From positions 1-28,326 of the IMG/VR virus record IMGVR_UViG_3300031857_001046: a stretch of DNA of 28,326 bases. The stretch is one strand, 5' to 3'. The notes below the pieces were generated by a model. It saw only the letters and a program-made list of their open reading frames with translations, ran no database searches and was not told the DNA's origin. The translations under genes were made by a program, and so were the position numbers. The stretch is from a virus. This document shows, in pieces, positions 4,569 through 25,798 of this stretch (position 1 is the first letter of the stretch; each line of letters starts with the position of its first letter).

Positions 4569-5582
4569 TTACCCCACTAGGTTGCCATCGGTGTCATAAA
4601 TGTTGCCGTTGCCGTCGGTGTACGCGATGGGCGTTGCACCTCCGTCCGCATAACCTCCGCGCTTCATACGGCGACCTTTGCCTGCCATTGTTGCGGCCAT
4701 AGGTTGCTTGCGCAACGCGCCGCCTTTGGCTTTGTGAATCACGCCACCACGGGCCTTGCCCGGCTCGGAACGAAGGAACGCACCCAGACCCTGCAAGAGG
4801 CCAGCAATCTGCGCCAGAGGTGCGTTGCTGTAGCCTTCTGAGCCAGTCGTCTGTTGCACGGTTCCGGTCGGCACTTGATAGCCCTGCAAGAGTTTTGCAA
4901 AGGCTTGAGTCTGAGCCATTGGATAGTCGAGCATCTTCTGGCCGAGGGCCTGCTCTTGACCGCCGTAGTCAAACAAAGTCTTGAGTCCACCAACACCGAG
5001 TTGCTGTTGCTCTTGGCCCAGTGAAGTAAACGAACGGCCAGCATTGAGCGCACGCTCCAAGTCGGTTTGTGCGAACTTGCCTGCTTCGGTGTAGCCCTGT
5101 TGTAGAGCGCCGAGTTGCTTACCGACTAGGTCAGACTGAAGGTCACGCAAAGCCTGACCAGTTACCTGAGCCTGACGACGCGAACCGAACTGACCAGTGC
5201 CCACAGCCGCACCGCCGAGGTTCGGCAACACATTCTCACGAATGTTGCGCTGTTGCAGACGGGCCATCTCGTTCACCACGGAACTGGTGTACGGGTTCAT
5301 GTAGTCCGCAACGACATCAGGCATCGTGGTGGCACCAGCCTCGCCAAGCAATTGAGACGCCGCGCCCAGAGAGCCTGATCCAGAGAACGCCACATTGGGC
5401 GCCATCTGGAGGGCTTGCTGTTGCAGTGGAGAGAAGCCAGCAATACCACCCTGCGTGACGGCGTTCTGGCCGAGGTTCGCAATATCTTGGAGGTAGTTTG
5501 TATAAAACTCTGGAGCGACCTGTTGTTGCTCCGTGGTTTTAGTTAGCGCTGGTAACGGATCACCTTGAAAAAGTCCGGCCAT
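4569..5582 (-). CDS. Putative virion/ejection protein with Gln-rich helical body (337 aa)
   Basis: The body (about 15-270) is Gln/Leu/Ala-rich and helical, with a conserved-looking core around DYMNPYTSSVVNEM and GTGQFGSRRQA (residues 93-138), a pattern I associate with phage structural proteins near ejection genes. The tail from residue 275 is very basic and Gly-rich (KARGG, KRGGYADGG). The last 19 residues end in YTDGNGNIYDTDGNLVG, a repeat type also found inside the adjacent 1073-residue protein. A GGA tract eight nt before ATG 5582 is the likely ribosome-binding site. No enzymatic motif is visible. The virion role is inferred from neighbours. Confidence 0.6.
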   Translation of the reverse strand: MAGLFQGDPLPALTKTTEQQQVAPEFYTNYLQDIANLGQNAVTQGGIAGFSPLQQQALQMAPNVAFSGSGSLGAASQLLGEAGATTMPDVVADYMNPYTSSVVNEMARLQQRNIRENVLPNLGGAAVGTGQFGSRRQAQVTGQALRDLQSDLVGKQLGALQQGYTEAGKFAQTDLERALNAGRSFTSLGQEQQQLGVGGLKTLFDYGGQEQALGQKMLDYPMAQTQAFAKLLQGYQVPTGTVQQTTGSEGYSNAPLAQIAGLLQGLGAFLRSEPGKARGGVIHKAKGGALRKQPMAATMAGKGRRMKRGGYADGGATPIAYTDGNGNIYDTDGNLVG

Positions 5583-5583
5583 C

Positions 5584-8500
5584 TCAAATTCCTTTCTTCA
5601 GGTACGAGGTCAACGCTTTGGTCTTCGGCGGAATCTTGTCCAACGGAGCAGAGCGCTTGTGTTTGCGAATGTTCTGTCTAAAGTCGTCCAACGCCTTCGC
5701 ACCTGCTTTGGTCGAACCATTACCAATCTGCGCCACTGTTTCAGCGTCAATCACATACTCACCATCCGCAAGCATAGCGGGAATGTCGTCAGATTGACCA
5801 TCGCCGGGGCCGTGAACGGCAGAGCCTTTACGGAAGTCCAAGCGGCCTTGAGCCAGCGGAACATTTGACACCGCAGGCAAGCCACCGCGCTTCATTGCAG
5901 GAGGCATCTGAACTTGCTGTGGCATCTGCTGTTGAGCAGAAGGCTGTTGAGGCGTGCCCATGGCCGGAGAGTTTGGCAACCCACCAGAGCGCGGCAAGCC
6001 ACCAGCCTGAGCCATTTGAGGCGCCTGCGTTTGCTGTACTGGGCGAGGATTGGTCAGGTTACTGATTGGGTCTACCGCTTTGCCAAAAGTGTAGTAACCG
6101 CCTGCCAAGCCGCCGTCAGCCATGCCTTGAGTTTGCTCAGTGCCTTCTTCGTCAGTTCTTTCAGTTTCTTCATAGCCGTAATCTCCTTCATTTACGGGAT
6201 TGAATCCCGGTGCGTTGAGGTTGCGATACAACTCGTCGCCATAAATTTCAGGCATTTCGTCTCGTGCGGCGTACTGATCGTAGGTCACATAGTTTGCAGG
6301 GCCAACACCAAAGTCGGTGGTGCGGGCCGGGATCACGCCAACCTTGGACATATCGATGCCTTGGTTCTGCGTGCCAGTACCGCCAGAGAACAGGTCGCTG
6401 TTCCCTAGAAGAGCGCCAAGCACTGCACCAGCGGCGCCAGCGCCAAGGTAACCAGAGCCAGTGATCTTGTCCATGATGTCGCTTACAGCAGACTTCTGCT
6501 CATTTTGACGATTCGTCTCATCAGCAAGTCGACGCGCACGCTGTGCTGGCGTCTCAGTGTTGTAGTAGTCGCGCAGGTCTACACCGCTACCACCGCTGGT
6601 CACGCTGTAGTCAGGAGCCTCGGTGGAACCAACAACATTACCGTCGCTGTCGACAGTCAGCGTAGAGCCATCGTCAAAGGTTTGAATGTAAGAGCCATCG
6701 TCAAAGTACTGGATGTTTCCGGCAGAGTAGCGGCTGGGATCATCCTCGCTTACAGTGCTGGTATCTTCGGTGTCTTGATCCATTTGACGCTCGGCCATGC
6801 TGTCTTCAACGCCGTTTGCGTTGTATTGGTAAACAGCGCCATCAGAGTCGTAAGTGACATAAGAGCCGTCATCGTAATAAACGATGTAAGAGCCATCATC
6901 AAAATACTCAACATCATCCGAACCCTCGTATGAGTTTTGAAGCAGGCTTGTATCTGGAGAGCCAGCGCCAAAGTAAGTAGAGGTTGCAGTTGGGCCTGCG
7001 CCACCAAAATAGCGCACCTCGCCACCGTCTGGGTTGTAGTAGGTGACAGGGTAGTCCTCTTCGTAGACAACCTCCTCGCCCTCATCGCCACCCTCTTGGA
7101 ATGCGCGGACTTTGCCGCCGTTGTTCATCAGTGCCACAAGACCTCCTTTTTTACCCCAGTAGTCAGGGTCGCCATAGTCATACTCGTCTTCTGTGTACTC
7201 ATCTTCGGCGTACTCGTCTTCAGGGTAAGTTATTTCTTCATCGTAATAATATTCATCTTCAGACCCGGCATATGGATCAAAGATCACATTGCCGTCCCAG
7301 TCATACTGATAGCCATCGTCATCGGTATAGACATAATCAGAATGATCCGCCTCAGCAATTAAGTTGCCGTAATAATCGTATTGATTGCCGTAGTCATCAG
7401 TGTAGATGTAGTCGGCAATTTCTTCATCGGTGTAGTAGTCGTCGGCGGAATAAAGCAGTTCACCAGTAGAGTCGTAAATGTTGCCGTACTCGTCTTCGTA
7501 GTAGCCCAATTCCTCCAACTCTTCATCGGTTGCACCTTCTTCAAGAGCAACCTCTTCTTCGCCTTCATACTCTGATTCATCTTCGGCAAAATCAGTTGCA
7601 TCGGTTGAGTCAACTACATTACCCTCGGCATCAATCGTGACAGTAGAGCCATCGTCATAGGTGTAGACGGTGTTGCCCTCGTCGTCAGTAGCAATATCGG
7701 TAGAGTCTTCGGCGTACTCGTCGGTCGCCTCGGTGTACGACACAACATTACCGTCTTCATCTAGAGTTACGGTAGAGCCGTCGTCGTAGGTGTAAGTGGT
7801 CGTGCCATCATCGTTGGTAGCGATGTCAGTGCCTTCGGCATCGGTTGAGCCAATAATGTTGCCATCAGCGTCATAAGTGATCGTTGAGCCGTCATCAAAG
7901 GTCTCGGTGAATGTCCCGTCTTCGTTCTCGGTGGCATTTGGATTGACGCCAACAGGAAAGCCGGACGCGCCCGTACCGCCAGTGGTTCCTCCAGTGGTAC
8001 CACCCGGTTTGGTCGGGCCTTTAGGCGTGACCGGAGGCTTAGGGCCACCAGTAGTTGGTTTTGTTGGGCCACCAGTTGTTGGCTTCTTGGGGCCAGTAGT
8101 AGTTCCACCCGGGGTCTTTGGCCCAGTGGTACCACCCGGCTTGACAACAGTTCCACCCGGTTTAGTTGTGGTGCCTCCGGGCTTAACAACAGTGCCGCCG
8201 GGTTTGGTTGTAGTTCCACCCGGTTTCGTAGTTGTCGTGCCACCGGGTTTGGTTGTTGTTCCGCCGGGCACCTTGGATGCGTCAACAACCTTCTTGGTGC
8301 CAGTCAGTTTGTCGTAAACCGCTTTGGTGCCCACACCTAGAGCCGCACCAGTCAACGCGCCAGTAATGGCGTTGGTCAGACCAGAGGTGCTTCCAGTCTT
8401 GCCTTGAGAGGTAGACACGGATGGACGAGAAGCGCCTGTTACCTTGTTGGTGATCGACTTGGGTGAGCCAACAACAGAAGTCAACGCAGGCTTAGATGCG

Positions 8501-8805
8501 CCAGTGGTTTTCTGAGCCGCAGTCTTTGCGGGCGTGACAGTAGAGCCGCCACCAATCTTCGGCGTGGATACGGCCTCACCCTTTACGGCGCTGGTCAGAC
8601 GGCTTGCGGGTGTTCCCCCTGCGGTTGTGCGAGAGGTCAACAGTGGCCGCGAGGTGCCAAGGTCACCGCCAGCGGGCCTATTGGGTCGGCTGACATCAGG
8701 GCTGGTAGTAGTCGTGCTGGTTAACTTGTCACCGGGACGAGAAACCTTACCGGATGTAGCCTCTGGAAGGCTTGCCTGTGAACGGCGTTTTTTCAGAATT
8801 GCCAT
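5584..8805 (-). CDS. Large acidic repeat-rich virion protein (1073 aa)
   Basis: Domains in order: a basic Ser/Thr/Pro-rich N-terminus (1-140); a short hydrophobic Gly/Ala segment (about 142-163); a Pro-Gly-Gly-Thr linker repeated many times (179-279); acidic beta-type repeats of the form DDGSTVTxDxxGNVV (296-405); YGNxYDxxGNL-type repeats (434-510); a Glu/Asp/Tyr block (515-550); a second DDGS set (633-727); a Gly/Ala segment (781-802); a Gln/Pro-rich linker (920-970); and a C-terminal domain (997-1050, GDGQSDDIPAMLADGEYVID) that I know as a recurring end of phage virion and tape-measure-like proteins. No catalytic residues are evident. It lies among putative ejection genes. The acidic repeats could bind metal ions, but they lack the canonical RTX nonapeptide. 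Function beyond 'structural' is unknown. Confidence 0.68.
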   Translation of the reverse strand: MAILKKRRSQASLPEATSGKVSRPGDKLTSTTTTSPDVSRPNRPAGGDLGTSRPLLTSRTTAGGTPASRLTSAVKGEAVSTPKIGGGSTVTPAKTAAQKTTGASKPALTSVVGSPKSITNKVTGASRPSVSTSQGKTGSTSGLTNAITGALTGAALGVGTKAVYDKLTGTKKVVDASKVPGGTTTKPGGTTTTKPGGTTTKPGGTVVKPGGTTTKPGGTVVKPGGTTGPKTPGGTTTGPKKPTTGGPTKPTTGGPKPPVTPKGPTKPGGTTGGTTGGTGASGFPVGVNPNATENEDGTFTETFDDGSTITYDADGNIIGSTDAEGTDIATNDDGTTTYTYDDGSTVTLDEDGNVVSYTEATDEYAEDSTDIATDDEGNTVYTYDDGSTVTIDAEGNVVDSTDATDFAEDESEYEGEEEVALEEGATDEELEELGYYEDEYGNIYDSTGELLYSADDYYTDEEIADYIYTDDYGNQYDYYGNLIAEADHSDYVYTDDDGYQYDWDGNVIFDPYAGSEDEYYYDEEITYPEDEYAEDEYTEDEYDYGDPDYWGKKGGLVALMNNGGKVRAFQEGGDEGEEVVYEEDYPVTYYNPDGGEVRYFGGAGPTATSTYFGAGSPDTSLLQNSYEGSDDVEYFDDGSYIVYYDDGSYVTYDSDGAVYQYNANGVEDSMAERQMDQDTEDTSTVSEDDPSRYSAGNIQYFDDGSYIQTFDDGSTLTVDSDGNVVGSTEAPDYSVTSGGSGVDLRDYYNTETPAQRARRLADETNRQNEQKSAVSDIMDKITGSGYLGAGAAGAVLGALLGNSDLFSGGTGTQNQGIDMSKVGVIPARTTDFGVGPANYVTYDQYAARDEMPEIYGDELYRNLNAPGFNPVNEGDYGYEETERTDEEGTEQTQGMADGGLAGGYYTFGKAVDPISNLTNPRPVQQTQAPQMAQAGGLPRSGGLPNSPAMGTPQQPSAQQQMPQQVQMPPAMKRGGLPAVSNVPLAQGRLDFRKGSAVHGPGDGQSDDIPAMLADGEYVIDAETVAQIGNGSTKAGAKALDDFRQNIRKHKRSAPLDKIPPKTKALTSYLKKGI
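6625..6909 (-). repeat. Acidic DDGS...DGNVV protein repeats, second block
   Basis: Residues 633-727 repeat YFDDGSYI twice, each followed by another DDGS(Y/T) and a YDSDG or VDSDGNVVGSTEA ending. This is the same unit as the block at 7591-7920, separated from it by about 230 residues, which points to internal duplication. Confidence 0.7.
7591..7920 (-). repeat. Acidic DDGS...DGNVV protein repeats, first block
   Basis: Three consecutive copies of a unit of about 35-45 residues (residues 296-405): Y-T-Y/F-DDGS-T-(V/I)-T-x-D-x-(D/E)GN-(V/I)-(V/I), followed by an acidic spacer with STDAEGTD, YTEATDEY or STDATDFA. Related copies recur at 6625-6909. Confidence 0.75.
7969..8271 (-). repeat. PGGT/TTKPGGT coding repeat array
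   Basis: About ten copies of a short unit encoding (T/V)(T/V)KPGGT, grading into TTGGP(T/K)KP and GGTTGGTTGG. The unit is degenerate at third codon positions, so selection acts on the protein. It probably forms an extended flexible linker between the N-terminal segment and the acidic repeats of the 1073-residue protein. Confidence 0.8.
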
Positions 8806-8808
8806 GTC

Positions 8809-10677
8809 TTATCCTTTGCCGCCAGTCAAAATTGAAGTCAGGCTTGCCACATCGCTGATCGGAGTCAAAGTCTTGACATCGACCTTCTTCGGAGGCGGAG
8901 CCTTTGCTACTGGCTTGTTGATCACCTTGCTCATGTCGATGGTTCGAGGAGCCTGCTTTTGCTGTCCTGCTCCACGAGCCTGTTGAAGTTGTGCCGTCGT
9001 CAGAGGTGACTTCTTCTGCACGGGGCGCTTGACCATGGTCTTGGTCGGAGTTCCCTTGATAGCGCGAGTCAGACCCTGACGAATTGCTGGCCTGAGGAAC
9101 TGGTTCAGTGCGCCAGCCACCATCTTGTCAGTCGTCATGCCGCTGGTGTCAACAAGACCTGTTCTACCAGCGATGTCGGTCAAGGCATTTAAGCCGCCAT
9201 CAATGATGCTTGGCCCTTGACGGCCAGTCACATCAACCGTGCTGTCTTCTGCAAGGTTGGCGATGTTCTCATCCAAGCCAGCGTAAGGGTCAACAGCCTT
9301 CTTTGTAGCCAATATTTCACTCTTGTCGACAAGGCTTTCGTCAGAATCAATGTCGGCCTTACCACCGGAGAAGATGATGTCTTCTTCGGTGATGTCGGTT
9401 GGCACATCTGTCGCCGCCTTGATTGTGGTCAGGCCACCAGTTGGCTCTTGCGCTTCGGTCTCAGCGACATAAGGCGTGTATTCGGTGTAATCGGTTTCTT
9501 CTGCGACCTCAACAGGAGTTTCTTCTGCAACCTCAACAGGAGTTTCTTCACCGATGCCATACTCAGCATACAAGTCCTGAACATCGCCGGGCAAAGCCTC
9601 AACAGTGACAGAACCCTGAGGCTCATCCTCATCGCTAAACTCATCGATGATTTCGGTTGCGTCGGTGCTTGCAAGCAGGTTGTCAATGTTGGTGGCTGAA
9701 CCTAAATCGGTTGCACCAAAAGTGGTGTCAAAGCCACCTAGATCGGTAGAGCCGACACCTGTAGTTGCAAGCGTATCGGTTGTTGCGCCGCTGTCGGTTC
9801 CCATGTCAGACACGGCAACCTCTTCAACCAACGAGTCCACGATACCTGCACCAGTGGTGTCAGTGTCGCGAGTTGTATCAAGCGCAAAGTAATCATCAAA
9901 ACTGAGCAGGTCGCTCTCAGTTTCTTTTTCTTTCTCTACGGTTTGCAAACCCTCTTCGGTCGAGCGGAACTGATCGCCAATCGTGTTGACGGCGTAGTTG
10001 GTTCCAACATTGATGGTTGAGTTCTGCACGCTGTTGATGAACGCATCATCAAAGTCGCCACGGCCAGTGATCTCTGCGGTCAGGCCAGCGGATACGGCGC
10101 GGGTGCCTTCCTTGACCAAAGAGTTGATCGTGCCAGTCTCAAGGCCGGAGTCAGACAGCATATCTTGTACGCCGGGGGAGATGAATTCGTTGGTGAACTC
10201 GCCAACCGAGGAGTTCACGAGAGTGCCAGTAAAGCCACCAGCAAAGCCGTCCTCAAAGTCACCGCCGCGAACCTCAGCAATGGTGCCGCTCACAAGGCCC
10301 TTGCTCACGCTGTCAACGACGATGTCGGACACAGTCTGGTTCACGATTGCGTCGCCAATGGACGCGGACAGGGTGGACGACAGAGCATTGCTTGCCTGCG
10401 GGGCGAGGTACGCCACACCAGCAGACAGCACGATGTCTTCAAGATCGCCGCCACGAGCCGCAGTCACAGCGGCCATGGTTACGGGCGGAGGAATACCGAT
10501 TGCGGCGCCAGCGATGGACAGGAGCGTTGGAAGAGGATCATTGACAATCGCCTCGACGGTATCGCCAACGAACTCAACCGCATCCTCTACAACATCGACG
10601 ACGGTATCGACTACATCACCGACTGCGTCGACGACATTCTCAACGACATCTGCGACAAAACTGACTACGGCACTCAT
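8809..10677 (-). CDS. Putative ejection/virion protein with amphipathic Val-Asp N-terminus (622 aa)
   Basis: The first 48 residues are a regular Val-Val-Asp-x-Val pattern (VVDAVGDVVDTVVDVVEDAV) that would form an amphipathic helix with a strongly hydrophobic face. Then comes a Gly/Ala/Pro hydrophobic stretch (about 49-95). A region to about 235 has repeats of the form RGGDFEDGFAGGF, RGGDLEDIVLSAG and GRGDFDDAFINS. The middle (about 240-480) is acidic and Thr/Asp-rich and includes a tandem ETPVEVAE; the C-terminus is basic with Pro and Lys. Membrane-active ends on a virion protein fit a role in forming the channel across the envelope at infection, but this is inference. The ATG overlaps the stop of the 147-aa gene by 4 nt (ATGA), linking it directly to the acyl cassette. 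Confidence 0.62.
   Translation of the reverse strand: MSAVVSFVADVVENVVDAVGDVVDTVVDVVEDAVEFVGDTVEAIVNDPLPTLLSIAGAAIGIPPPVTMAAVTAARGGDLEDIVLSAGVAYLAPQASNALSSTLSASIGDAIVNQTVSDIVVDSVSKGLVSGTIAEVRGGDFEDGFAGGFTGTLVNSSVGEFTNEFISPGVQDMLSDSGLETGTINSLVKEGTRAVSAGLTAEITGRGDFDDAFINSVQNSTINVGTNYAVNTIGDQFRSTEEGLQTVEKEKETESDLLSFDDYFALDTTRDTDTTGAGIVDSLVEEVAVSDMGTDSGATTDTLATTGVGSTDLGGFDTTFGATDLGSATNIDNLLASTDATEIIDEFSDEDEPQGSVTVEALPGDVQDLYAEYGIGEETPVEVAEETPVEVAEETDYTEYTPYVAETEAQEPTGGLTTIKAATDVPTDITEEDIIFSGGKADIDSDESLVDKSEILATKKAVDPYAGLDENIANLAEDSTVDVTGRQGPSIIDGGLNALTDIAGRTGLVDTSGMTTDKMVAGALNQFLRPAIRQGLTRAIKGTPTKTMVKRPVQKKSPLTTAQLQQARGAGQQKQAPRTIDMSKVINKPVAKAPPPKKVDVKTLTPISDVASLTSILTGGKG
9497..9544 (-). repeat. 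24-nt tandem duplication in the 622-aa gene
   Basis: Two adjacent 24-nt units (9497-9520 and 9521-9544) differ at a single base and are followed by a few bases of a third. They encode the octapeptide ETPVEVAE twice in frame. Near-identity at the DNA level suggests recent slippage. Confidence 0.85.
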
Positions 10678-11117
10678 TCTTTAGCCTCCCGCTTCGGCCC
10701 GAGTTTCACGGTGACGCGGTACCCGGTGTTTGTCTTCTCGGCCCTGTAGCCCATTTGCTCACGGGGAGGATTGCGCGAAATGGCCTTGAAGATATTGATG
10801 ATGGTTGGGTCTTCAAACTCGGTCATCAGAGTATCGAAGCCCATCTTGTATGCGGCCTGAATGAACTCGTAGGAGTTCTCAAGGTAGTTCCGAGCAGTGT
10901 CGGCATTCAGGGCGCGGAAAGTGCCCACGCGGCCTTTGGCGTGGTGCATCATGAAAATGGTGTTGCCTGCGCGGTAGGTGGTGGTGCCACGGAGATTCAT
11001 CTCCTTCACAAGTGCGGCATAAACCTGAGCGGCAGAGTACTTGGACTTTGTCTCTTCAGCGGCGATCATCAGGATCGCCTGCTCTCCAAGTTGTTTTTCT
11101 TTACTATTTACCAGCAT
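10674..11117 (-). CDS. 147-aa protein beside KS/ACP; possible GNAT-like acyltransferase
   Basis: The start is ATG 11117, one nt after the stop of the ketoacyl synthase gene, with GAGGGG seven nt upstream; the frame extends to a TTG at 11132, but that would lie upstream of this site. Predicted order: two N-terminal helices (1-42), two strands (TTTYRAGNTIFMMHH and GRVGTFRAL, 45-70), a helix (74-93), a strand (DTLMTEF, 95-101), a helix (DPTIINIFKAI, 103-113), then two strands (MGYRAEK and GYRVTVKLG, 122-140). This matches the second half of the GNAT fold, where a GF or GY follows the last helix. However, the Q/R-x-x-G-x-G/A cofactor loop is not evident. GNAT-fold enzymes that use acyl-ACP include HlyC-type protein acyltransferases, LuxI-type synthases and N-acyl amino acid synthases. 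Function is therefore a hypothesis; the gene itself is secure. Confidence 0.55.
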   Translation of the reverse strand: MLVNSKEKQLGEQAILMIAAEETKSKYSAAQVYAALVKEMNLRGTTTYRAGNTIFMMHHAKGRVGTFRALNADTARNYLENSYEFIQAAYKMGFDTLMTEFEDPTIINIFKAISRNPPREQMGYRAEKTNTGYRVTVKLGPKREAKE

Positions 11118-11118
11118 T

Positions 11119-12234
11119 TCAAAGCCCCTCAAAGATTGCGGCGCTGTAGATGTTTCCCATCCCAGCCGCCAGACTCAGCACCAACCCCTTTGGTGGCTTA
11201 GTCGGTTCCGACAAGAAAACCGAATCGGATTCGGTTCGATTTTCGATTGGAGGAACGAATCCCTTTTTCATATCCTCCAGCAATAATAATGATTCCAGCA
11301 GTCCAGAGGAACCCATGGTGTGACCTATTTTTTGCTTGTACGAGGTCACGACAAAATCTTCAAAGCCTGCATTGAGGATTGCGGCCTTCTCTGCTTTGTT
11401 GTTTGACTCGGTTCCGGTGCCGTGGGCTTTGACAATCTTGATGTCTTGGCGAAGCACGCCGCTGTAGCGCAGAGTGCCCTCTATGGCCTTCGTAAAGCCC
11501 TGACCGTCCTCGCATTGACCGATGGCATTGGTTGATGCTTCGGAGGCGCTGTAGGCCCCTACAAAGCGGGCCAGAGGATCACGATTGAGTTTGCTCAACG
11601 ACCATTCGCTCTCAAACACCGCCAGCGCGGCGCCCTGACCCACATAGAAGCCGCGATTCTTGCTGTCGAATGCCGAAGGCTTGACTCCGGTCTCAGCCTC
11701 CTCCTTGGCCGTTAAAACGGCGCGGGACTCGCCAAAGAACTCCAAAACGGCGTTTGAGACACCGTCTTCGACCGTCAGCACGATCACACGCTCAAAGCCG
11801 TAGTTCTTCATCAGAATCTCGACATCCATCATCACTTTGAGGCTGGATGCGCAAGCAGATGCGTCAGTGGTCACCAAGTCCATGTTGCCAAACGACTGAG
11901 CCATACGGCCTGCATAGACCTGAGTCAGCGTGAACGGCAAGAACTTGTAGGTGTAGGACAACTTGGTGTCGTATGCACGCTGGCCGATACCTGCGAAGTG
12001 CTGATTGCCGCCAGCAAGGATGAATGCAGTCTTGCCGACTTGGTTCTCACGCAAGTACTGGATCAACTCGGCGTCCAGAACCTTGTCAGCCAGTTTGTGC
12101 GGGACATAGAACATCCCGGTCTTGACGCGGTTATAGGTTTCTGGGAACCAGTGAACGCGTTGTGGGTAGACGATGTCGTCAAACAACTCGACATTGTTGG
12201 TGGCCGCTGTGCGGTAGTGCGTGAGGTAGATCAT
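11119..12234 (-). CDS. Beta-ketoacyl-ACP synthase (thiolase-fold condensing enzyme), divergent, 371 aa
   Basis: Condensing-enzyme motifs appear in order: TTDASACASS with nucleophile Cys128; an FDSKNRGFYVGQGA segment (189-202) matching the FD-x3-GF-x2-GEGA signature of KAS I/II enzymes; KAHGTGTESNN with His271; and YKQKIGHTMGSSG with Lys300 and His305, the Lys five residues before His as in FabF. The full Cys-His-His set implies Claisen condensation of acyl and malonyl units on ACP. Oddities: about 40 residues shorter than FabF, GQG replaces GEG, and the C-terminal FGFGGTN gating loop is replaced by LAAGMGN (355-361), so substrate choice may differ. ATG 12234 overlaps the ACP stop by 4 nt. It could also be a chain-length or initiation-type KS; activity is predicted from motifs only. 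Confidence 0.9.
   Translation of the reverse strand: MIYLTHYRTAATNNVELFDDIVYPQRVHWFPETYNRVKTGMFYVPHKLADKVLDAELIQYLRENQVGKTAFILAGGNQHFAGIGQRAYDTKLSYTYKFLPFTLTQVYAGRMAQSFGNMDLVTTDASACASSLKVMMDVEILMKNYGFERVIVLTVEDGVSNAVLEFFGESRAVLTAKEEAETGVKPSAFDSKNRGFYVGQGAALAVFESEWSLSKLNRDPLARFVGAYSASEASTNAIGQCEDGQGFTKAIEGTLRYSGVLRQDIKIVKAHGTGTESNNKAEKAAILNAGFEDFVVTSYKQKIGHTMGSSGLLESLLLLEDMKKGFVPPIENRTESDSVFLSEPTKPPKGLVLSLAAGMGNIYSAAIFEGL
11125..11130 (-). promoter_or_regulatory. Ribosome-binding site deciding the start of the 147-aa gene
   Basis: GAGGGG on the minus strand, seven nt before ATG 11117, inside the last codons of the ketoacyl synthase gene. It favours ATG 11117 over the TTG at 11132. Confidence 0.65.
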
Positions 12235-12518
12235 TTGATTGCCTCTTTCGCCGCCGCGACTGACTCTGGCTCTTGCGTTTTACGCTTCATCAGATAGTCG
12301 AAGACCTCCTGAACGGAGGTCGGGTGCCAGTCTTTTGTCTCGTCGTCTTCTGAAATTCCGTAGAGTTCGCAGAAGTACATCGTCATCACTAAGCCATCGA
12401 GACTATCAATCCCGATGTCTGCCAACTTGTCTTCCATGGTCGTTGCAGGTGCTTCTTTGGCGTGAGCCGGACGAGCAACCTGCGAGACCATGTTGAACAT
12501 CTCAATAAAATTTGTCAT
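12231..12518 (-). CDS. Acyl carrier protein (95 aa)
   Basis: The motif DIGIDSLDGLVM carries Ser39 within Asp-Ser-Leu, the 4'-phosphopantetheine attachment site of acyl carrier proteins. The following helix and loop (FCELYGISEDDE) and the TSVQEVFDYL helix match ACP helices II-IV, and the chain is acidic in the right places. At 95 residues it is slightly longer than bacterial AcpP, with an N-terminal extension (about 1-25) and a Lys/Glu-rich C-terminal tail. It would need a phosphopantetheinyl transferase, presumably the host's; none is seen here. The ATG overlaps the upstream gene by 4 nt and has no strong ribosome-binding site, so translation is probably coupled. It directly precedes the ketoacyl synthase, its expected partner. 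Confidence 0.92.
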   Translation of the reverse strand: MTNFIEMFNMVSQVARPAHAKEAPATTMEDKLADIGIDSLDGLVMTMYFCELYGISEDDETKDWHPTSVQEVFDYLMKRKTQEPESVAAAKEAIK

Positions 12519-12760
12519 GGATTCATCGCCGCTAAAAGAGCCGCCGCCCAGTCTTGCCAGTCGTCATACTGGTAAGGGTTGGGAGCCGCTTCGTTTGTAA
12601 AAATATCAATTGCCAACAAGCCAGCCCCCCACGCCTTCCAGTCTGTGCCGGATGTTGGAATGGAGAGTTGTTGACTTGCGTACTGCTCACATAAGAGGGA
12701 CGCCCAGTCCTCAAATGTCTGGTATCGGGGGTCATAGAGAAGTCCCTGATTAGTAGCCAC
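12515..12760 (-). CDS. Small protein with three W-x-x-W-A-x-x-L-L repeats (81 aa)
   Basis: The start is ambiguous. GTG 12760 has GGAG exactly six nt upstream, whereas ATG 12766 abuts the same GGAG, so I prefer the GTG. The frame extends further, but only over the end of the upstream gene. The product holds three copies of an amphipathic Trp motif: FEDWASLLCEQY (16-27), WKAWGAGLLAID (41-52) and WQDWAAALLAAM (68-79), separated by Pro/Asn-rich turns. It overlaps the tail-stabilisation gene by 11 nt and the ACP gene by 4 nt. No named family is recalled with confidence. It may be a small tail-associated protein or a partner of the ACP; its position between the two modules leaves both open. Confidence 0.68.
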   Translation of the reverse strand: MATNQGLLYDPRYQTFEDWASLLCEQYASQQLSIPTSGTDWKAWGAGLLAIDIFTNEAAPNPYQYDDWQDWAAALLAAMNP

Positions 12761-14741
12761 GGACATCTCCAATCGTTGCGTTGAGCAAGACCTTACCGAG
12801 TTGATAGTCGCCGCCAGCCACATTGCTGACAAACTTCATACGAAGTTCGCGGCGTTGTTCTTTCATGTCAATTTTGTTGGTGTTCGGAGCAAACACGAAT
12901 GGATCAGAAGTCTCGTCCGTAGACTGCGCATAGGGACGACCAGTGATGTACAACTCCATGTTGCCAGTCTGAATGAAGTCAGGCTCAACACGCTCAAGAC
13001 GGAGCCAACGGTTCTCACCCATAGGCGAAGGCTGTGACGGGCCACCAGAGACCCAACCAAGGTCGTTGGTCTCAAAGTAAGACTCAATGGCGTTGGCGGT
13101 TGCACCCTGCACTGCATCAGTACCAATCTCGTGTTGCCACAGGCTGGTGAATGTCATCAGGCTGTTGACGGTAATCACAAGACCAGAGCCAGCGGGGATA
13201 GATGCAGAAAGCAAGTCGCCCACGGTGTAGTTCTGCCCACGGTTCACAATGGTCACAGAGGTAACGACACCAGCCGTAACAACGATGTCAGCCGTCGCGC
13301 CCGTACCTGTGCCGCCAGTAAGAGGTTGAGCAAGGTAGGTGCCGTTGGTGTATAGCGTGCCGCCAGCGGTCAAGGTGAATGCGTTTACGCCGCCGGAAGA
13401 GTTGGCCTCCCAGCCAGCATTGATGGGGTAGTGGAACACCTGAGAGAAGTACCCAGCGGAGCGACGGGCGCCCAAGGCTTGACCGAGGTCATACCAGCAG
13501 TTCTCGCGGATGTTGTAGATCACGCAGTCGTTGCACTCTGTCGATGTGCCAGACGGGAAGAACCACCAGATTTCACCGAAGCGAGGAACCTTGGCGGCAA
13601 AGACTTTCTGACGCTGTTCGTAGTTCAGATTGTCAAAGAAGTAGTTCTGGTTGAAGGTGTTTGGAATCTCTTTCACAACACCGTTGTAGAGCAGGAAGCG
13701 GTCAACACCGCACCAGTAGTAGATGCCGTCGTACTCGATCACAGAAGACGATGACAGGATCGAAGACTGCGAAGAAATGATGTCGTAGCGCCAGTAGAAG
13801 GTCTGAGGCGTGCCGCCCACCGTGATGGTGGTTGGGTTGTACGACACACGGATCAGCGAATCAAGCGACCAGAAGAGGCCAGAAGGCGCGTTTGAACCAC
13901 CTCGCACTGGTAGGCCCTTGACGATCTTTGTGGAGGCCACATTGGTCTCGTTGGAGTCAGCGGAGACCCAGTCGTTTGGGTTGCCAGCCGCGCAGTTGCG
14001 GATTAAGCCGTTGTTGCCGTACACGAAGACATACGGGTGCAGAACGACCACGCCACCAGAGACATCGACATTGTTGTCAATCGTCAGCGTGGAGGCGCCA
14101 GTAGCGGTTGCGGCGGCGCTGATCTCAAAGGTCGTGGTGTTGGTCACGGACGCGACCGTAGTGCCCGATGGGATACCTGTGCCAGTGACTGACTGACCTG
14201 CGGCAATCAGACTGGTGTTTGCAACAGTCACCGTGGTGGTGGAGTTAAGCGTTGCGGCAACATTGAACACACCGATAGCCGAGAAGGTCGTGCCCGAGGT
14301 CGAGCCTGCAAGAACAGGCGTATTGATTGAACTGTCAATCAGCGAAAGGTTTTGACCGGGGTGGCAGACAAGCAATTCATCACCAGAACCGGATGAGTCA
14401 AACAGAGAGTCAAACTGCCAAAGGTTGTTTGCGTTTGGCGTGAAGTCACTTAGCGTCATGTCGGTGACGCCAGAGCCGATGCCCACATTGTTGATTGGGA
14501 TCAGTTGCAGGCCATCAGAGTAGCCGTTGTAGACATTGTTGAAGTTGTTCTCAGGGATCACATAGATGCCGCGAGATGGGCCAGCCATGTCGTCGACGAT
14601 CTCACGGTACCCAGCAATCTTGCGAGGGCGACCGCGCTGGAAACGAACCCAGCGACCGTCGTTGTAGAACTCCTTGTCGAAGATCGTGCCGTCGCGCTGA
14701 ATGCCCGGCTTAGTGTCAAGAGCAAAGACTTTTTGCGTCAT
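12750..14741 (-). CDS. Tail-stabilisation / tail-hub protein, P22 gp10-like (663 aa)
   Basis: The N-terminus (GTIFDKEFYNDGRWVRFQRGRPRKIAGY, residues 18-45, in parts) and core signatures (WSLDSLIRVSYNP; WRYDIISSQSSILSS; EYDGIYYWCGVDRFLLYNG; FAAKVPRFGEIWWFFPSG) are those of packaged-DNA/tail-stabilisation proteins of podoviruses, a beta-propeller-like component below the head-tail adaptor. The C-terminal part (GRPYAQSTDETSDPFVFAPN and following) is a beta domain. Two low-complexity beta inserts break the core: residues about 154-224 (Thr/Ala/Val-rich, Ig-like) and about 452-526 (Gly/Thr-rich). It starts 1 nt overlapping the previous gene's stop (TGATG). The family resemblance is strong; the P22 name is by analogy. 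Confidence 0.8.
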   Translation of the reverse strand: MTQKVFALDTKPGIQRDGTIFDKEFYNDGRWVRFQRGRPRKIAGYREIVDDMAGPSRGIYVIPENNFNNVYNGYSDGLQLIPINNVGIGSGVTDMTLSDFTPNANNLWQFDSLFDSSGSGDELLVCHPGQNLSLIDSSINTPVLAGSTSGTTFSAIGVFNVAATLNSTTTVTVANTSLIAAGQSVTGTGIPSGTTVASVTNTTTFEISAAATATGASTLTIDNNVDVSGGVVVLHPYVFVYGNNGLIRNCAAGNPNDWVSADSNETNVASTKIVKGLPVRGGSNAPSGLFWSLDSLIRVSYNPTTITVGGTPQTFYWRYDIISSQSSILSSSSVIEYDGIYYWCGVDRFLLYNGVVKEIPNTFNQNYFFDNLNYEQRQKVFAAKVPRFGEIWWFFPSGTSTECNDCVIYNIRENCWYDLGQALGARRSAGYFSQVFHYPINAGWEANSSGGVNAFTLTAGGTLYTNGTYLAQPLTGGTGTGATADIVVTAGVVTSVTIVNRGQNYTVGDLLSASIPAGSGLVITVNSLMTFTSLWQHEIGTDAVQGATANAIESYFETNDLGWVSGGPSQPSPMGENRWLRLERVEPDFIQTGNMELYITGRPYAQSTDETSDPFVFAPNTNKIDMKEQRRELRMKFVSNVAGGDYQLGKVLLNATIGDVRGY
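12767..12770 (-). promoter_or_regulatory. Ribosome-binding site favouring a GTG start for the Trp-repeat gene
   Basis: GGAG on the minus strand six nt before GTG 12760, lying inside the C-terminal codons of the tail-stabilisation gene. The neighbouring ATG at 12766 would have zero spacing. Confidence 0.55.
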
Positions 14742-15979
14742 CAGAATGTCCCGCCCTTAATGCCACCGCTGAATTTACCTTCACCAGTGACAGTGATGCC
14801 CGTAGCCAAGATGTTGATGATCTGGCTTCCCAAAATTGCAAAAGCCACTTGACCAATGCCGGGGCGATACATACCCGAGTTGGTCTCAGCGGCAAAGTTG
14901 ATAGCAGGGGTTCCGACCGTACCGTTAATCAGGTTCAGTGAGGTTGCACCAGCCTGCACGGTATTGGCGTTGAAGAAGTTCACGCCGTCGCACACCAGAG
15001 TCGCTTGCTGTCCGGGCGGAATAGTTGTCGACAATGCGCCGCCTGCGCTGGTCTTAATCGTCAGGGTGTAGCCGTTGTCGGTGGTTTGGTTCGAGACCAC
15101 ATACAAGGTCACCACCTGAGGGAAGACCACCTCCACATTCCCAGTGAGCGATCCAACATATTCTTGGATCACATTCTGCGCTTCGTTAGTCGTCAGGGTA
15201 TAAGTTCCGGAGACAACAGGCTTCACCAGAGCAGAGAACGCAAACTCAGTGTTTGCGCCGTAGCCCACAGTGATGTACTCGGTGCCCGTACAAATGATGA
15301 ACGCGGCATCGTTTGGCTGGAATGTCTTGGTGATCTTGCCGTCGATCAACTCAGCCGATGTCGTGCCCACGGTCATGGTTCCGGTGCCGTTGTTCTTCAA
15401 CAGCGTGAACCAGTTGTTGCCTAGAGACGATGCAAGGGGAAGGGTAGAAGTTCCGGAGCCGCTTGACCACACCTTAGTTTGGGCGCGGTCAGAGGCAAGG
15501 TAGGTGTACCCGTTGGTCAACGAGGATGTGGGGTGGCTTTGATTCAGCGTGGTGCTGATTGCCAGCAAGCCATACCCGGCAAGAGTTGCCGCATCAGCAG
15601 ACGAAGAGCCTGCACCAAAGGCGATGTTGCCCCATGTGCCAGCGACCGTGCTGTTGTCGGTGATGTAGATGTACTTGGCCTCACCCGGGGCCACGGTGAT
15701 GATCGTGCTTGCGCCGCCAGAGGTAGTGACGGTAAACGAGTTCGAGCCAACATTTCGGATCAAAGAGTCTTCACCGACAGACGCTTCGTTTGCTGGAGGA
15801 ACACGCAATTGCAGGCCAGCCGATGAGGCATTGACCTGCATGATTCGAGCGATGAAGTCAGTCGCGGTGGTGCTGTTAGACGGCCAATTCAGTTGCGTGT
15901 TGGCCGACAGTGCTACCGTCCGGTACGAGACATCGGTGGGCTGTATGACATCGCCCGTGAATGGGGAAACATAACTCAT
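14741..15979 (-). CDS. Beta-rich tail/virion protein (412 aa)
   Basis: The sequence is almost entirely beta-strand and Thr/Ser/Gly/Asn-rich with no Cys-dense or enzymatic motif. Residues 1-250 contain two similar halves (RNVGSNSFTVTTSGGASTIITVAPGEAKYIYI and NNWFTLLKNNGTGTMTVGT...FIICTGTEYI, cited in part) typical of jelly-roll repeats. The C-terminus has INFAAETNSGMYRPGIGQVAFAI and ends in GGIKGGTF. Phage fibre or appendage proteins often have an NSGMYRP-type segment. ATG 15979 overlaps the adaptor stop by 4 nt. It lies between an adaptor and the tail-stabilisation protein, so it may be a tail needle, knob or fibre-anchoring protein; the exact role is not known. Confidence 0.65.
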   Translation of the reverse strand: MSYVSPFTGDVIQPTDVSYRTVALSANTQLNWPSNSTTATDFIARIMQVNASSAGLQLRVPPANEASVGEDSLIRNVGSNSFTVTTSGGASTIITVAPGEAKYIYITDNSTVAGTWGNIAFGAGSSSADAATLAGYGLLAISTTLNQSHPTSSLTNGYTYLASDRAQTKVWSSGSGTSTLPLASSLGNNWFTLLKNNGTGTMTVGTTSAELIDGKITKTFQPNDAAFIICTGTEYITVGYGANTEFAFSALVKPVVSGTYTLTTNEAQNVIQEYVGSLTGNVEVVFPQVVTLYVVSNQTTDNGYTLTIKTSAGGALSTTIPPGQQATLVCDGVNFFNANTVQAGATSLNLINGTVGTPAINFAAETNSGMYRPGIGQVAFAILGSQIINILATGITVTGEGKFSGGIKGGTF

Positions 15980-16605
15980 GTGTCAAGTACCGCCGCTTGT
16001 CGGTCACCGATACGCTGAATATCCTCAGTCTTCAACACCTTCATGATGGTGTCGTATTGAGCCTGCCACATGGCAATGCGCTCGTCGTTCTTCAGGTATG
16101 GCATGGCCTGCAAGAGGGAGCCGTACAGAAGAGCCTGAGGGGCGTAGGCGGTAAACCAGTTGGTTTGATTGGACACATCCAGAGGCTGGACGCGCTCGTA
16201 GTACAACACCTCAAAGGCGTAGGCCGATGCCGGGGTGGGGGCAACGAGCCAGTGGGTGTAGTCGTAGTCACAGTAGTAGGCCGGAACATCCTCAAGAGTT
16301 TGGTTCGGCCAGTACTCGCGAAGGTACTCGTATTTTCTGAGAAGGATGGGCTGTCGGACGCCGCCTACAGTCACATTCATGGACACGGTTTTATGCCACC
16401 GAGCAGGCTTTTCGATTACAGGATTACCCTGCACCATATTGCTGGTGTTTACCGTCAGGTTGCCGAGAAACTTGATCTCTGCGGCAATGACCTGCTCGGC
16501 CAGCATAATGAAGGTGGGAATCTTGGCAATCGTCTCGGCGTCACTGCGCTCAAGATATTGCTGGATGTCTGTCACCAGCGAGTTGTATGTCATTACGACG
16601 GCCAT
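15976..16605 (-). CDS. Head-tail adaptor-like protein (209 aa)
   Basis: The start is ATG 16605, which shares a base with the preceding TGA and has AAGGTG a few nt upstream; an internal ATG at 16593 and upstream GTGs are alternatives. The N-terminal half is helical (SLVTDIQQYLERSD, IPTFIMLAEQVIAAEI), followed by a strand-rich middle (WHKTVSMNV, LLRKYEYLREYW, FEVLYYERVQPL). A helical end (YAPQALLYGSLLQAMPYLKNDER) closes it. This architecture and motif order match phage adaptor proteins that join portal to tail (gp4/gp11-like). A second protein with related features is encoded at 25798-26871. Adaptor identity is fairly confident from the pattern; the phage it most resembles cannot be named without a search. 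Confidence 0.7.
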   Translation of the reverse strand: MAVVMTYNSLVTDIQQYLERSDAETIAKIPTFIMLAEQVIAAEIKFLGNLTVNTSNMVQGNPVIEKPARWHKTVSMNVTVGGVRQPILLRKYEYLREYWPNQTLEDVPAYYCDYDYTHWLVAPTPASAYAFEVLYYERVQPLDVSNQTNWFTAYAPQALLYGSLLQAMPYLKNDERIAMWQAQYDTIMKVLKTEDIQRIGDRQAAVLDT

Positions 16606-16997
16606 CACCACACCTTTTTCTTGATAGATTCAGGCTGTGGGACAAACTGCTTGCCTTTTTGTGTGCCCTCTCGTTTGGCACGGGTCGTAGCACCGTACTC
16701 TGCGGGAGTTAATTTCTCACGGGCTTGTTTCGGCAGGTACCGTTCCCCAGTCGCCTCTTTACCCTGAGTGGACGGCTTACCGGATCGAGTTCCCCAATCT
16801 TCTTGCGTCCACTTACTTAATGAATTATCCGCCTTTTTAGGGCCTTTGTAACCCCCTCCGCTACTCTTGTATTTTTGAGTCGCGAGTTGGGCTTTTCTTG
16901 CGCTCCACTGACCGGGTTTGCCACCCTTATCAGAGGCTTTGACTTGAGACACGATCCGCTTCCATTTGGATGGATCGCTTTTGGTTGCTGTACTCAT
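16605..16997 (-). CDS. Small basic protein, DUF5872-type (130 aa)
   Basis: The start is ATG 16997, sharing one base with the stop of the endolysin gene (TGATG), with a GGGGGTG tract just upstream. Residues about 6-80 (SDPSKWKRIVSQVKA, GGKPGQWSARKAQLA, GGGYKGPK, SLSKWTQEDWGTRSG) match the family I know as DUF5872, small Lys/Gly/Trp-rich proteins found in phages and large DNA viruses. The C-terminal part (GERYLPKQAREKLTPAEYGATTRAK, cited in part) is a second basic motif. It is strongly basic, and a nucleic-acid-binding or virion-packaged role is plausible but unproven. It is embedded between lysis and adaptor genes. Confidence 0.75.
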   Translation of the reverse strand: MSTATKSDPSKWKRIVSQVKASDKGGKPGQWSARKAQLATQKYKSSGGGYKGPKKADNSLSKWTQEDWGTRSGKPSTQGKEATGERYLPKQAREKLTPAEYGATTRAKREGTQKGKQFVPQPESIKKKVW

Positions 16998-18912: not shown

Positions 18913-19866
18913 TTAAGATGTGAAATAAGTGCCCTCAATGTACCAGTCAATAGAGGAACCCATATTTGTAACAGTCACTGTCGCATCAACACCTGTCTGC
19001 GGATTTGATGTCGAAGCAGATGTCCAAAACTTTGCGTGGGTTGCGCCGTTTTCAATCATGCTGGCTTGCGGCTGAACTGCTGTAGAGCCTCCTCTATAAC
19101 CCATTGCAAATGCAGTCCAATACTCAGTGGACGCAAATGGGAAGCCCCCAATTCTTGCATCACCACTACCTCCAGTAATTGCGCTAAAAGTAATGTTTGC
19201 TCGAATATGAACAGCCCTACCAACTTTCACATAGTGGCCTACATTTGTTCCGCCTGCTGTTCCAGTTGGATTTGACCCAGTGCCACCCAAACTTGGAGTC
19301 CAAGTCCCCTCCTCATAATCATCTAGCGTGTTTGCGTTAGATGATGCTGTTTGAGTTGCGGGGAAGGTGATGCCTATGCCAGATGCTGGAGAAGCGCCTT
19401 GCAAGGCAATAGTCTGGCTTGCAAGACCCATAGTAAGGGTGGTCGTAAATCCAGCACCTGCACCCGCTGTTCCAGCGGCGGCTGAGTAAAAATAAAACCC
19501 GCCATTTGCCAATTTCAATGCCGAAGCCGCATCCGAATTGATGTACTTGGGTGATGCGCCTAACGGGTTCGTAAGATTGGACGATATTTGCGTTTGATTG
19601 TTGGTTGACGATGCGCTAATAGATGCAATCGATCCAACTGGGCCAAATTGCATAACTTTTTGACCGTAAGCGCTGTCAGCCGCACTGGGGGTTATGCCAA
19701 GACCAATGTTCTGTGAGGCATCAACCAAAAACGCCAGCGTGCCATTCGTGGCAAGAGCCACCTGATTGGCGGCAGGGTAGTAGACACCAGTGGTCGCACC
19801 ACCAGTACCGCCTTGTACCGCTGGATCAGAGACGCTGTTGTCTGTTCCTTTGAGAATGAGTGTCAT
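18913..19866 (-). CDS. Tail fibre / receptor-binding protein (317 aa)
   Basis: AAGGAA precedes ATG 19866. The chain is beta-rich and low in charge: an N-terminal region with Gly/Thr repeats (GGTGGATTGVYYP), a middle region (QNIGLGITPS) and a stalk-like part. A domain starting at GIGITFPATQ with the linker NTLDDYEEGTWTP (residues about 165-190) follows; it is shared with the gene at 19906-20721. The C-terminal domain (about 200-317) is a beta-sandwich-like module with HYVKVGRAVHIRANITFS, often seen at the ends of fibre proteins. It probably contributes to host recognition. It is AT-richer than the genes left of 17000. Confidence 0.68.
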   Translation of the reverse strand: MTLILKGTDNSVSDPAVQGGTGGATTGVYYPAANQVALATNGTLAFLVDASQNIGLGITPSAADSAYGQKVMQFGPVGSIASISASSTNNQTQISSNLTNPLGASPKYINSDAASALKLANGGFYFYSAAAGTAGAGAGFTTTLTMGLASQTIALQGASPASGIGITFPATQTASSNANTLDDYEEGTWTPSLGGTGSNPTGTAGGTNVGHYVKVGRAVHIRANITFSAITGGSGDARIGGFPFASTEYWTAFAMGYRGGSTAVQPQASMIENGATHAKFWTSASTSNPQTGVDATVTVTNMGSSIDWYIEGTYFTS

Positions 19867-19905
19867 GGTTATTCCTTGTCTTTATTTGGTCAATGAACTC
19901 TTTGG

Positions 19906-20721
19906 TTAAGCGGATGTTCGGTATGTATAACCAAGAATTATTTCTGTTGTGTTTGAAAATTGTGCATTTGTCAATCCTATTTTTGCACCGCCAGAAATTT
20001 GTCCATACCAACTTAAAACAGCCCCACCAGAACCTCCTTGGTTGGAAATGTTGTATGCGCCAGACGGAAGCGTTAAATTATTAGAAGAAAAAGCCGCACA
20101 TGAATACGAAAATAAACCTGAGTTAGTTGGGAACGGAAGAGAAATATTTGCATCACCAGTGGCGCTACCTTTGCTGGACAAAACAATAATTAAACTTACA
20201 AAAACCAATTGCCCTATTTTTATATAGGACGCCGACCTAGTGGAATATGTAATTCCCGTGTTTGCAAGACCAAAAGTAAGTTCTGGAGTCCAAGTCCCCT
20301 CTTCATAGTCATCCAGAGTGTTTGCATCGCTTGATGGGCTTTGAGTGGATGGGAATGTGATACCAAAACCAGAAGATGGGACAGCAGTTCCAACACCGAT
20401 ACCATATTGGTTCATTGCCGCCATGTAGGTGGCATGAGTTGGGTTGTAGAAGCCAAGGTTGTTGGCGCTGTTTGCGCCAATCTGGAATTGCTCATTTGCG
20501 TTTACAACAGTTACAGCCGCCGCAGTAGCGTTATAAATACTTAGATTGGCACCGAAGCCACCACCGTTGTAAGCAGTAGCAGAGCCAACGGCAACAGAGG
20601 TTCCACTCAAGATGTTGACTGCAACCGTACCATTCGACTGAAGTTGCAATACACCAGAAGCGTCAGCAGTCTGTACGATGCCGCCGCTACCAGTAGAAGA
20701 TGCGTTGATTATTGAGGCCAT
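19906..20721 (-). CDS. Tail fibre / receptor-binding protein (271 aa)
   Basis: The N-terminus (MASIINASSTG, then ADASGVLQLQSNGTVAV) parallels that of the 257-aa gene at 21075, and residues about 120-150 (GFGITFPSTQSPSSDANTLDDYEEGTWTPEL, cited in part) parallel the 317-aa gene. The protein thus looks assembled from exchangeable modules: an attachment domain, a linker and a beta-rich tip (ASYIKIGQLVFVSLIIVL and following). GGGAG upstream of ATG 20721 is the likely ribosome-binding site. Codon and base use are visibly AT-richer than neighbours. Host recognition is the likely role. Confidence 0.65.
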   Translation of the reverse strand: MASIINASSTGSGGIVQTADASGVLQLQSNGTVAVNILSGTSVAVGSATAYNGGGFGANLSIYNATAAAVTVVNANEQFQIGANSANNLGFYNPTHATYMAAMNQYGIGVGTAVPSSGFGITFPSTQSPSSDANTLDDYEEGTWTPELTFGLANTGITYSTRSASYIKIGQLVFVSLIIVLSSKGSATGDANISLPFPTNSGLFSYSCAAFSSNNLTLPSGAYNISNQGGSGGAVLSWYGQISGGAKIGLTNAQFSNTTEIILGYTYRTSA

Positions 20722-20724
20722 ATT

Positions 20725-21060
20725 TTATGCTCCCGCCCAAGGTAGAGGCAATGTCACAATTGGAGGGTTAATCTGCAATTGAATTTCTGCCTCGATTTTC
20801 GATTCTGTTCCTGTTTTATTTACGCCGTTGCTCCAGCACCAATTAAGCACCTGATCTTGTGTGAGGTCTGCATAAGGAGTGAAAGCGCCATCTTGCAAGG
20901 GGAAAGATGCAACACCACAAGATGTCGCCGAGAAACGAGTGTCTCCAACAGACTGATTTCCAGTGCAACGCCATCCAGCGGTAATCACAACATCTGTGTA
21001 TTGACCTTCACTTGGCTTGCATTGCATCCATTCAATTGTCCAAACAATGTTTGTATTCAT
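20725..21060 (-). CDS. Small protein in fibre cluster, DUF7936-like (111 aa)
   Basis: The start is set at ATG 21060, which has AGGA about ten nt upstream; the longer frame to 21093 lacks a better site. The sequence WTIEWMQCKPSEGQYTDVVITAGWRCTG (residues 7-34, in part), PYADLTQDQVLNWCW (76-90) and a C-terminal INPPIVTLPLPWAGA match a family common in phage fibre regions that I recall as DUF7936. The function is unknown. Three paired-looking Cys-containing beta segments are visible. It lies between two fibre genes and is probably a fibre-associated or chaperone-like accessory. Confidence 0.6.
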   Translation of the reverse strand: MNTNIVWTIEWMQCKPSEGQYTDVVITAGWRCTGNQSVGDTRFSATSCGVASFPLQDGAFTPYADLTQDQVLNWCWSNGVNKTGTESKIEAEIQLQINPPIVTLPLPWAGA

Positions 21061-21074
21061 AGAAGTTTTCCTAA

Positions 21075-25457: not shown

Positions 25458-25798
25458 TAGGGACTCGGTGCGATGTTGTCGAGATTGCCGTTGTTTTCCG
25501 GAGTGTCCGTATTCCCTTCGGTCGTGATCTCAAAGTTATTCGGGCCGTTCGTGAGCAGTGCATCCGGATCAACGGCCACACTCTCGTCAGGGCGGGGAAA
25601 GCGCAAGTTGATGCGCTCTGTTTTTCTTGCTGGTAGGCGATAAGGATCGAACTCATCCTTGCAACCCTGATCGCACACACGAAGACCCGGGAAGTTCGGG
25701 TCGGCCATCAATGACACAAAGGTGCGCTTCATCTTGCACCTATCGCAAACTGCGATGGCGACAGAAGATAGGCCGCGTGTGTCAAGAAAAATCGGCAT
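25457..25798 (-). CDS. Zinc-ribbon protein (113 aa)
   Basis: Cys18-x2-Cys21 and Cys42-x3-Cys46 form a likely zinc-binding site, with GLRVCDQGCKDEFDPYRLPARKTE (about 38-61, in part) as a recurrent motif in small phage proteins near adaptor genes. The C-terminal half (about 65-113) is acidic and disordered. The start (25798) shares a base with the adaptor gene's TAA (TAATG), and the next fibre ATG shares one with its own stop. Function is unknown; it may be a small virion or assembly factor. Confidence 0.7.
   Translation of the reverse strand: MPIFLDTRGLSSVAIAVCDRCKMKRTFVSLMADPNFPGLRVCDQGCKDEFDPYRLPARKTERINLRFPRPDESVAVDPDALLTNGPNNFEITTEGNTDTPENNGNLDNIAPSP

Follow-up and report, generated by a model that had tools for sequence, protein, structure and literature searches.

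Why would a phage carry genes for fatty-acyl chemistry in the middle of an operon that encodes its virion? The question is raised by a 28,326-nucleotide (nt) stretch of viral DNA (IMG/VR virus record IMGVR_UViG_3300031857_001046, positions 1 to 28,326; this whole stretch is hereafter the window), in which an earlier note had described genes for an acyl carrier protein (ACP), for a condensing enzyme, that is, a beta-ketoacyl-ACP synthase (KAS), and for a third protein of 147 amino acids (aa). All three open reading frames (ORFs) were recovered where the note had put them, on the minus strand (Table 1), with the ACP and KAS genes joined by a 4-nt overlap, ATGA, and the third gene (gene 3) set 1 nt beyond KAS. 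We confirmed the observation, which concerns conserved genes under selection and reaches further than the note had seen, in that gene 3 encodes a predicted GNAT-fold protein, the three genes form an all-or-none cassette, and this cassette is linked to the ejection gene that follows it. The three products quite probably act in one acyl-transfer reaction.

The KAS exceeded the cut-offs of both ketoacyl-synthase domains in Pfam (Ketoacyl-synt_C, PF02801, E 2.5e-16; ketoacyl-synt, PF00109, E 3e-7), and its best match in NCBIfam was fabF (E 5.9e-30). Against the FabF equivalog TIGR03150 it scored 104 bits, far below the cut-off of 493.75, and we therefore regard it as a distant FabF relative and not as FabF itself. 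The residues named in the note, Cys128, His271, Lys300, and His305, correspond in alignment to the Cys-His-Lys-His catalytic set of E. coli FabF and were invariant across 76 KAS sequences of the family, so that the putative enzyme has both domains and the Cys-His-His triad plus Lys. In PHROGs, it matches phrog_35856, labelled 'unknown function'. A structure prediction for the KAS gave a poor model (pLDDT 51, from a shallow alignment) and was not used. As a single sequence, the ACP had no match in Pfam and a weak one in NCBIfam (acyl_carrier, E 4.7e-4); its family profile, searched against PDB, found ACPs or ACP subunits in all of the 60 best matches (best E 2.9e-4), and DSLDG, which holds Ser39, was invariant across 82 family sequences. 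This predicted protein is related in sequence to ACPs, and its DSL phosphopantetheine site is intact, as the note had said. Median dN/dS was 0.093 for ACP, 0.080 for KAS, and 0.086 for gene 3, that is, all three genes are under strong purifying selection. That ACP and KAS are chance finds, remnants, or wrongly called genes, a reading to which the missing Pfam match of the lone ACP sequence might lend itself, has next to no probability and is already refuted by the profile matches, the invariant active sites, the purifying selection, and the ACP-KAS overlap of 4 nt, which was kept in 81 of 81 loci.

The phage pair thus shares the catalytic Cys-His-Lys-His set and the ACP DSL serine with FabF (KAS II) and AcpP of type II fatty-acid synthesis. 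It differs from them in that the KAS is only ~24% identical to E. coli FabF, lacks FabF's first ~30 residues, and has Met359 at the FabF gating Phe, and in that the genes lie in a virion operon. Moreover, neither a phosphopantetheinyl transferase nor an SDR reductase (PF13561) was found in 24 relative records, while the same searches were positive in 10 and 13, respectively, of 14 control genomes; holo-ACP formation and any reductions must therefore be supplied by the host.

Gene 3 of the window had no match in Pfam, PHROG, or NCBIfam. Its AlphaFold model, built with an input of 20 family members from which the phage-record row MW202545 was left out, reached a pLDDT of 92.2 and a pTM of 0.84 and displayed the strand-helix order of GNAT proteins. 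All 50 matches listed by Foldseek against PDB were GNAT acetyltransferases (best E 3.2e-4, probability 1.00, TM 0.57), with moderate TM-scores of 0.38-0.57, and on this modelling the fold is that of a GNAT. The coenzyme A (CoA) pyrophosphate loop, [QR]xxGx[GA] after beta 4, was absent in 20 of the 21 family GNATs and misplaced in the other, for which reason we do not class gene 3 among the CoA-dependent GNAT acetyltransferases; with an acyl-ACP as donor, this loop would presumably not be needed. The GNAT carries a positive net charge in 20 of 21 members and the ACP is acidic (-8 to -12), which fits docking between the two.

A GNAT fold or domain between a nozzle or tail gene and the ejection (internal virion) genes is also known from T7 gp13, where the gene order is 12-13-14, and from the Cobavirus GNAT (pc40), which adjoins internal virion proteins and has been regarded, from its position, as the equivalent of T7 gp13 (PMC6775973). 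No ACP or KAS is present there, and the gp13 loop, RLSGKA, is absent from the gene 3 family; gene 3 resembles gp13 by position, and no sequence match emerged from the PHROG and Pfam searches, which did not compare the two directly. As a morphogenesis role has been proposed for T7 gp13 (PMC6775973), the gene 3 product could likewise be a non-catalytic virion-assembly chaperone, with the ACP as its structural or regulatory partner, as in other complexes, and the KAS loading or sensing the acyl state. The lack of the canonical CoA loop pattern, and of any match to a GNAT family in sequence, would suit such a chaperone, but a purely structural role does not require the catalytic residues that are invariant in the KAS, and we consider it quite unlikely.

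We surveyed relatives for the co-occurrence of the three genes. One KAS scan of viral contigs returned 104 related loci; after duplicate removal there were 179 distinct KAS loci, 130 of them with adequate flanks, and ACP, KAS, and GNAT were contiguous in 128 of the 130. The exceptions were a locus with a frame-broken KAS (L298) and one with an extra ORF between KAS and GNAT (L370). The latter ORF (L370:10177-10847) carries a HIDNN-type motif and possibly encodes an oxygenase or hydroxylase. The genes are true phage genes of a virion operon, as the earlier note had held, and neither of the outcomes that it had set against itself, profile searches without a match or genes scattered or decayed in relatives, occurred, given the profile matches and the co-occurrence at the same place in relatives. 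With the nozzle gene as the landmark, 73 distinct loci had enough downstream sequence, of which 45 had none of the three genes, 26 had all three, two had the GNAT only, and none had ACP or KAS alone; the scans comprised the best 80 matches and one nozzle profile was built from cassette-bearing phages, such that the counts should not be read as unbiased frequencies. That no partial ACP/KAS state was seen is independent of this sampling bias, and ACP, KAS, and GNAT behave as one all-or-none unit. A clean empty site exists in Caulobacter phage GB2A, where ACP, KAS, and GNAT are all missing and nozzle, small ORF, and next structural gene follow each other, overlapping by 4 nt. In nine KAS loci, the upstream sequence exceeded 3.5 kb yet had no nozzle match, and these represent a second gene context (e.g. 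L084, L154, L158); ACP-KAS-GNAT was retained in them and was followed by the ejection gene wherever the sequence was long enough. The cassette stays with the ejection gene when the upstream genes differ.

The carriers are a large group of uncultured aquatic phages, and members of the family are common among phage contigs from the environment. Among phage records, MW202545 was the only true relative of all three proteins; this annotated genome (MW202545.1), the one found with the relatives, has the same gene order, with its ACP and GNAT called hypothetical. Other KAS matches in phage records were distant (22-30% identity) and mostly came from records without annotation; these are probably FabF/FabB genes of the ordinary kind. 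A scan of genome contigs found one locus with the same block, L084, on a phage-like 37.6-kb contig (JAGYJQ010000016.1) in a Balneolaceae metagenome-assembled genome (MAG). This is a possible host clue, but may be a binning error, and we therefore claim no host. The second KAS-like match of the MAG was 25% identical, indicating that the KAS is not recently host-derived in this one MAG.

These data bear on whether ACP and KAS could be an auxiliary metabolic cassette that alters host fatty-acid synthesis or membrane lipids, with the GNAT, a gp13-like assembly factor, merely adjacent. There is precedent for both halves of this idea, in that Rhodobacteraceae prophages carry fabG-acpP-fabF, described as auxiliary metabolic genes (PMC8224337), and in that Cobavirus GNATs occupy the gp13 position without ACP or KAS (PMC6775973). 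The prophage set resembles ours in its phage-encoded ACP and FabF-type KAS; however, it includes a reductase and follows the order of the host fab cluster, whereas the cassette comes with a GNAT and is fixed in the virion module, and the lack of a PF13561 reductase in the 24 records sets it apart from a host-like fab set. ACP and KAS were, furthermore, never seen without the GNAT in the surveyed loci, and the divergent, truncated KAS is not host-like. This is not an ordinary fatty-acid auxiliary cassette, and we judge the metabolic explanation unlikely.

What, then, would receive the acyl group? The suggestion of the earlier note, that the phage may make or elongate an acyl-ACP of its own, agrees with all of the findings, but the purpose of the cassette is likely acyl transfer to a virion protein and not acyl-ACP production for its own sake. 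The candidate acceptor is the 622-aa protein encoded next door, which precedes genes matching tape-measure and DNA-ejection families and begins with MSAVV, then a Val-rich acidic segment. The protein after the cassette starts M-[SGAT]-[AGV]-[VIA] in 100 of 105 cassette loci, and its second residue is one of S, G, A, and T in all 105, whereas the first large protein of loci without the cassette has this start in 1 of 46. Mean entropy of the ejection-protein N-termini was 0.99 bits at residues 2-5 versus 2.16 at residues 6-40. Lysine was absent from the first 30 residues in 99 of 121 unique N-termini, which makes the alpha-amine the obvious nearby acceptor, and a lysine acceptor was set aside on the same grounds. 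A natural contrast for the acylation idea is provided by two GNAT-only contigs, L353 (5435-7782) and L460 (6549-7500), which have no ACP and no KAS. In their ejection protein, the homologous core DPLPTLLAIAG... is preceded by MSWFKKRFNAVKK, replacing MSAVV and the acidic Val-rich stretch, and the N-terminus is basic (MSWFKKRF). Over the query, these contigs share 97% identity, and they therefore represent a single lineage, but no assembly accident.

The all-or-none linkage in itself requires a shared reaction only, not the ejection protein as its acceptor. ACP, KAS, and GNAT could act jointly on some other protein, of the virion or of the host, or yield a small molecule, such as an N-acyl amino acid or a signal-like product, and LuxI-type synthases are GNAT-fold acyl-ACP users that make small molecules. 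We hold a different acceptor to be somewhat unlikely, since the cassette is fixed in the virion operon directly ahead of the ejection gene in both genomic contexts, and since the N-terminal motif points to the adjoining ejection protein.

Several points nevertheless weigh against acylation of the ejection protein. The GNAT-only case is one lineage. Descent confounds the correlation with the motif, since the cassette is inherited along with this family of ejection proteins and the first ejection gene of most phages without the cassette is unrelated. Bacterial proteins often have a small residue at position 2, and the ejection role of the 622-aa protein is read from its position, with no family match in the PHROG search. 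The GNAT could be inactive, as phage GNAT-like proteins at this position, including T7 gp13, work without ACP or KAS. Lastly, rank correlations of evolutionary distance (ACP-KAS, 0.90; KAS-GNAT, 0.69; nozzle-KAS, 0.83) tie the GNAT to the KAS no more closely than the nozzle, and were not used as support.

We infer catalysis, donor, acceptor residue, chain type, and the entry role of the acylation module in the following scheme, which sets out from computed features: what ACP and KAS are and that their active sites are intact, the GNAT fold, the all-or-none linkage, and the linkage and motif of the ejection gene. Host AcpS would place phosphopantetheine onto the phage ACP, and an acyl primer from the host would be joined to malonyl-ACP by the phage KAS, so that the phage ACP comes to carry an acyl chain; further steps, if any, would be performed by host reductases and dehydratase. 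The GNAT-fold protein would then take the acyl group from the phage acyl-ACP and pass it on to the first ejection protein, where the most likely site is the alpha-amine of Ser2 or Gly2, exposed once Met is removed. The lipidated, Val-rich amphipathic N-terminus may anchor or insert the ejected protein in the host membrane, helping DNA to cross. The weakest step is the acceptor, which the linkage, the N-terminal motif, and the lack of lysines suggest is probably the ejection protein, and probably its N-terminal amine. The full scheme, in which a phage acyl-ACP is produced by KAS and ACP and serves the GNAT in acylating the ejection protein, probably at its N-terminus, is a serious candidate that we stop short of calling probable.

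In goadvionin and selidamide biosynthesis, an ACP-built chain is moved by a GNAT-fold enzyme onto a ribosomally made peptide. The logic is the same as that proposed for the phage, but these are bacterial secondary-metabolite clusters, and the likeness is in logic only. Picornavirus VP4 is an N-terminally myristoylated, membrane-active capsid protein used in genome delivery. It would serve a similar purpose, although by a host N-myristoyltransferase with a CoA donor and in a eukaryotic virus, and is an analogy only. A pore role of VP4 is among the points made in PMC4125281. Phages with their own lipidation pathway, in which a dedicated ACP, a KAS, and an ACP-dependent GNAT give rise to a membrane-anchoring, N-acylated delivery protein as the bacterial counterpart of myristoylated VP4, may exist, an idea that we advance more tentatively.

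Table 1. The cassette and its neighbours; coordinates are whole-window positions, and all ORFs listed are on the minus strand.
Feature	Position	Strand	Basis
ACP, 95 aa	12231-12518	minus	Predicted phosphopantetheine Ser39 in DSLDG; 60 best PDB matches of family profile are ACPs
Compact FabF-like KAS, 371 aa	11119-12234	minus	Pfam PF02801/PF00109; fabF; Cys128, His271, Lys300, His305 intact
Gene 3, GNAT-fold protein, 147 aa, probable acyltransferase	10674-11117	minus	AlphaFold model and Foldseek against PDB
Probable ejection protein, 622 aa, proposed acyl acceptor	8809-10677	minus	Position after GNAT; N-terminal motif
Small Trp-rich ORF, 83 aa, between nozzle and ACP	12515-12766	minus	GB2A homologue in same place, E 7e-10
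Nozzle / tail stabilisation protein, survey landmark	12750-14741	minus	PHROG 3287 virion structural protein, E 8.7e-24; MW202545 homologue is 'phage stabilization protein'
Downstream virion gene, C-terminal stretch tape-measure-like (context)	5584-8805	minus	PHROG tail length tape measure, best E 1.4e-6
Downstream DNA ejection-like protein (context)	4569-5582	minus	PHROG 4287 DNA ejection protein, E 9.5e-4
Glucosaminidase-domain protein, same gene run (context)	934-2634	minus	PF01832 Glucosaminidase, E 6.6e-12

The earlier note had placed the three genes between a tail-stabilisation gene and putative ejection genes, fused to both sides by short overlaps. The overlaps exist on both sides (4 nt, ATGA, between gene 3 and the ejection gene; 4 nt between the 83-aa ORF and ACP), but the ACP gene is not directly beside the nozzle gene, from which the 83-aa ORF separates it. 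This small ORF adjoins the nozzle gene in 81 of 82 loci and occurs with and without the cassette, and therefore belongs with the nozzle. Stretches resembling ribosome-binding sites were present at the starts of KAS, gene 3, and the ejection gene, the last with GGAGG, and the GC content of the cassette region was 53%, versus 54% for the window.

Elsewhere in the window, the protein at 5584-8805 has a C-terminal GPGDGQSDDIPAMLADGEYVIDAETVA that also ends gp65 of Caulobacter phage GB2A, the first large structural gene past the GB2A nozzle, from which it seems that an end module moves between virion proteins. Pro/Thr/Gly and Asp/Tyr repeats (GGTTTKPGGT; TYDDGSTVT) dominate this 1073-aa protein (window positions 5950-8700), a low-complexity composition for a virion protein. 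The SU10 adaptor family was matched by two separate proteins, at 15976-16611 (E 1.7e-25) and at 25798-26871 (E 1.2e-5, just under the curated cut-off), which suggests two adaptor-like genes. Three adjoining genes at 18913-21848 have related fibre-like stretches at their start or inside (e.g. MASII-A-TS-G, GITFP-TQ-SS-ANTLDDYEEGTWTP), in what looks like tail-fibre gene duplication.

In the literature searched, no ACP-KAS-GNAT phage operon is reported. The proteins belong to known families, but for the phage system that they form, whose function we infer, we could find no described counterpart. The family is widespread, yet its KAS is of 'unknown function' in PHROGs, and the one annotated genome found lists its ACP and GNAT as hypothetical. 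If the proposed scheme is true, this would be, to our knowledge, the first case of a phage producing the acyl donor with which its virion is modified, and a conserved phage acylation unit tied to an ejection protein would offer a chemical handle on how the ejection proteins of short-tailed phages enter or cross the host inner membrane.

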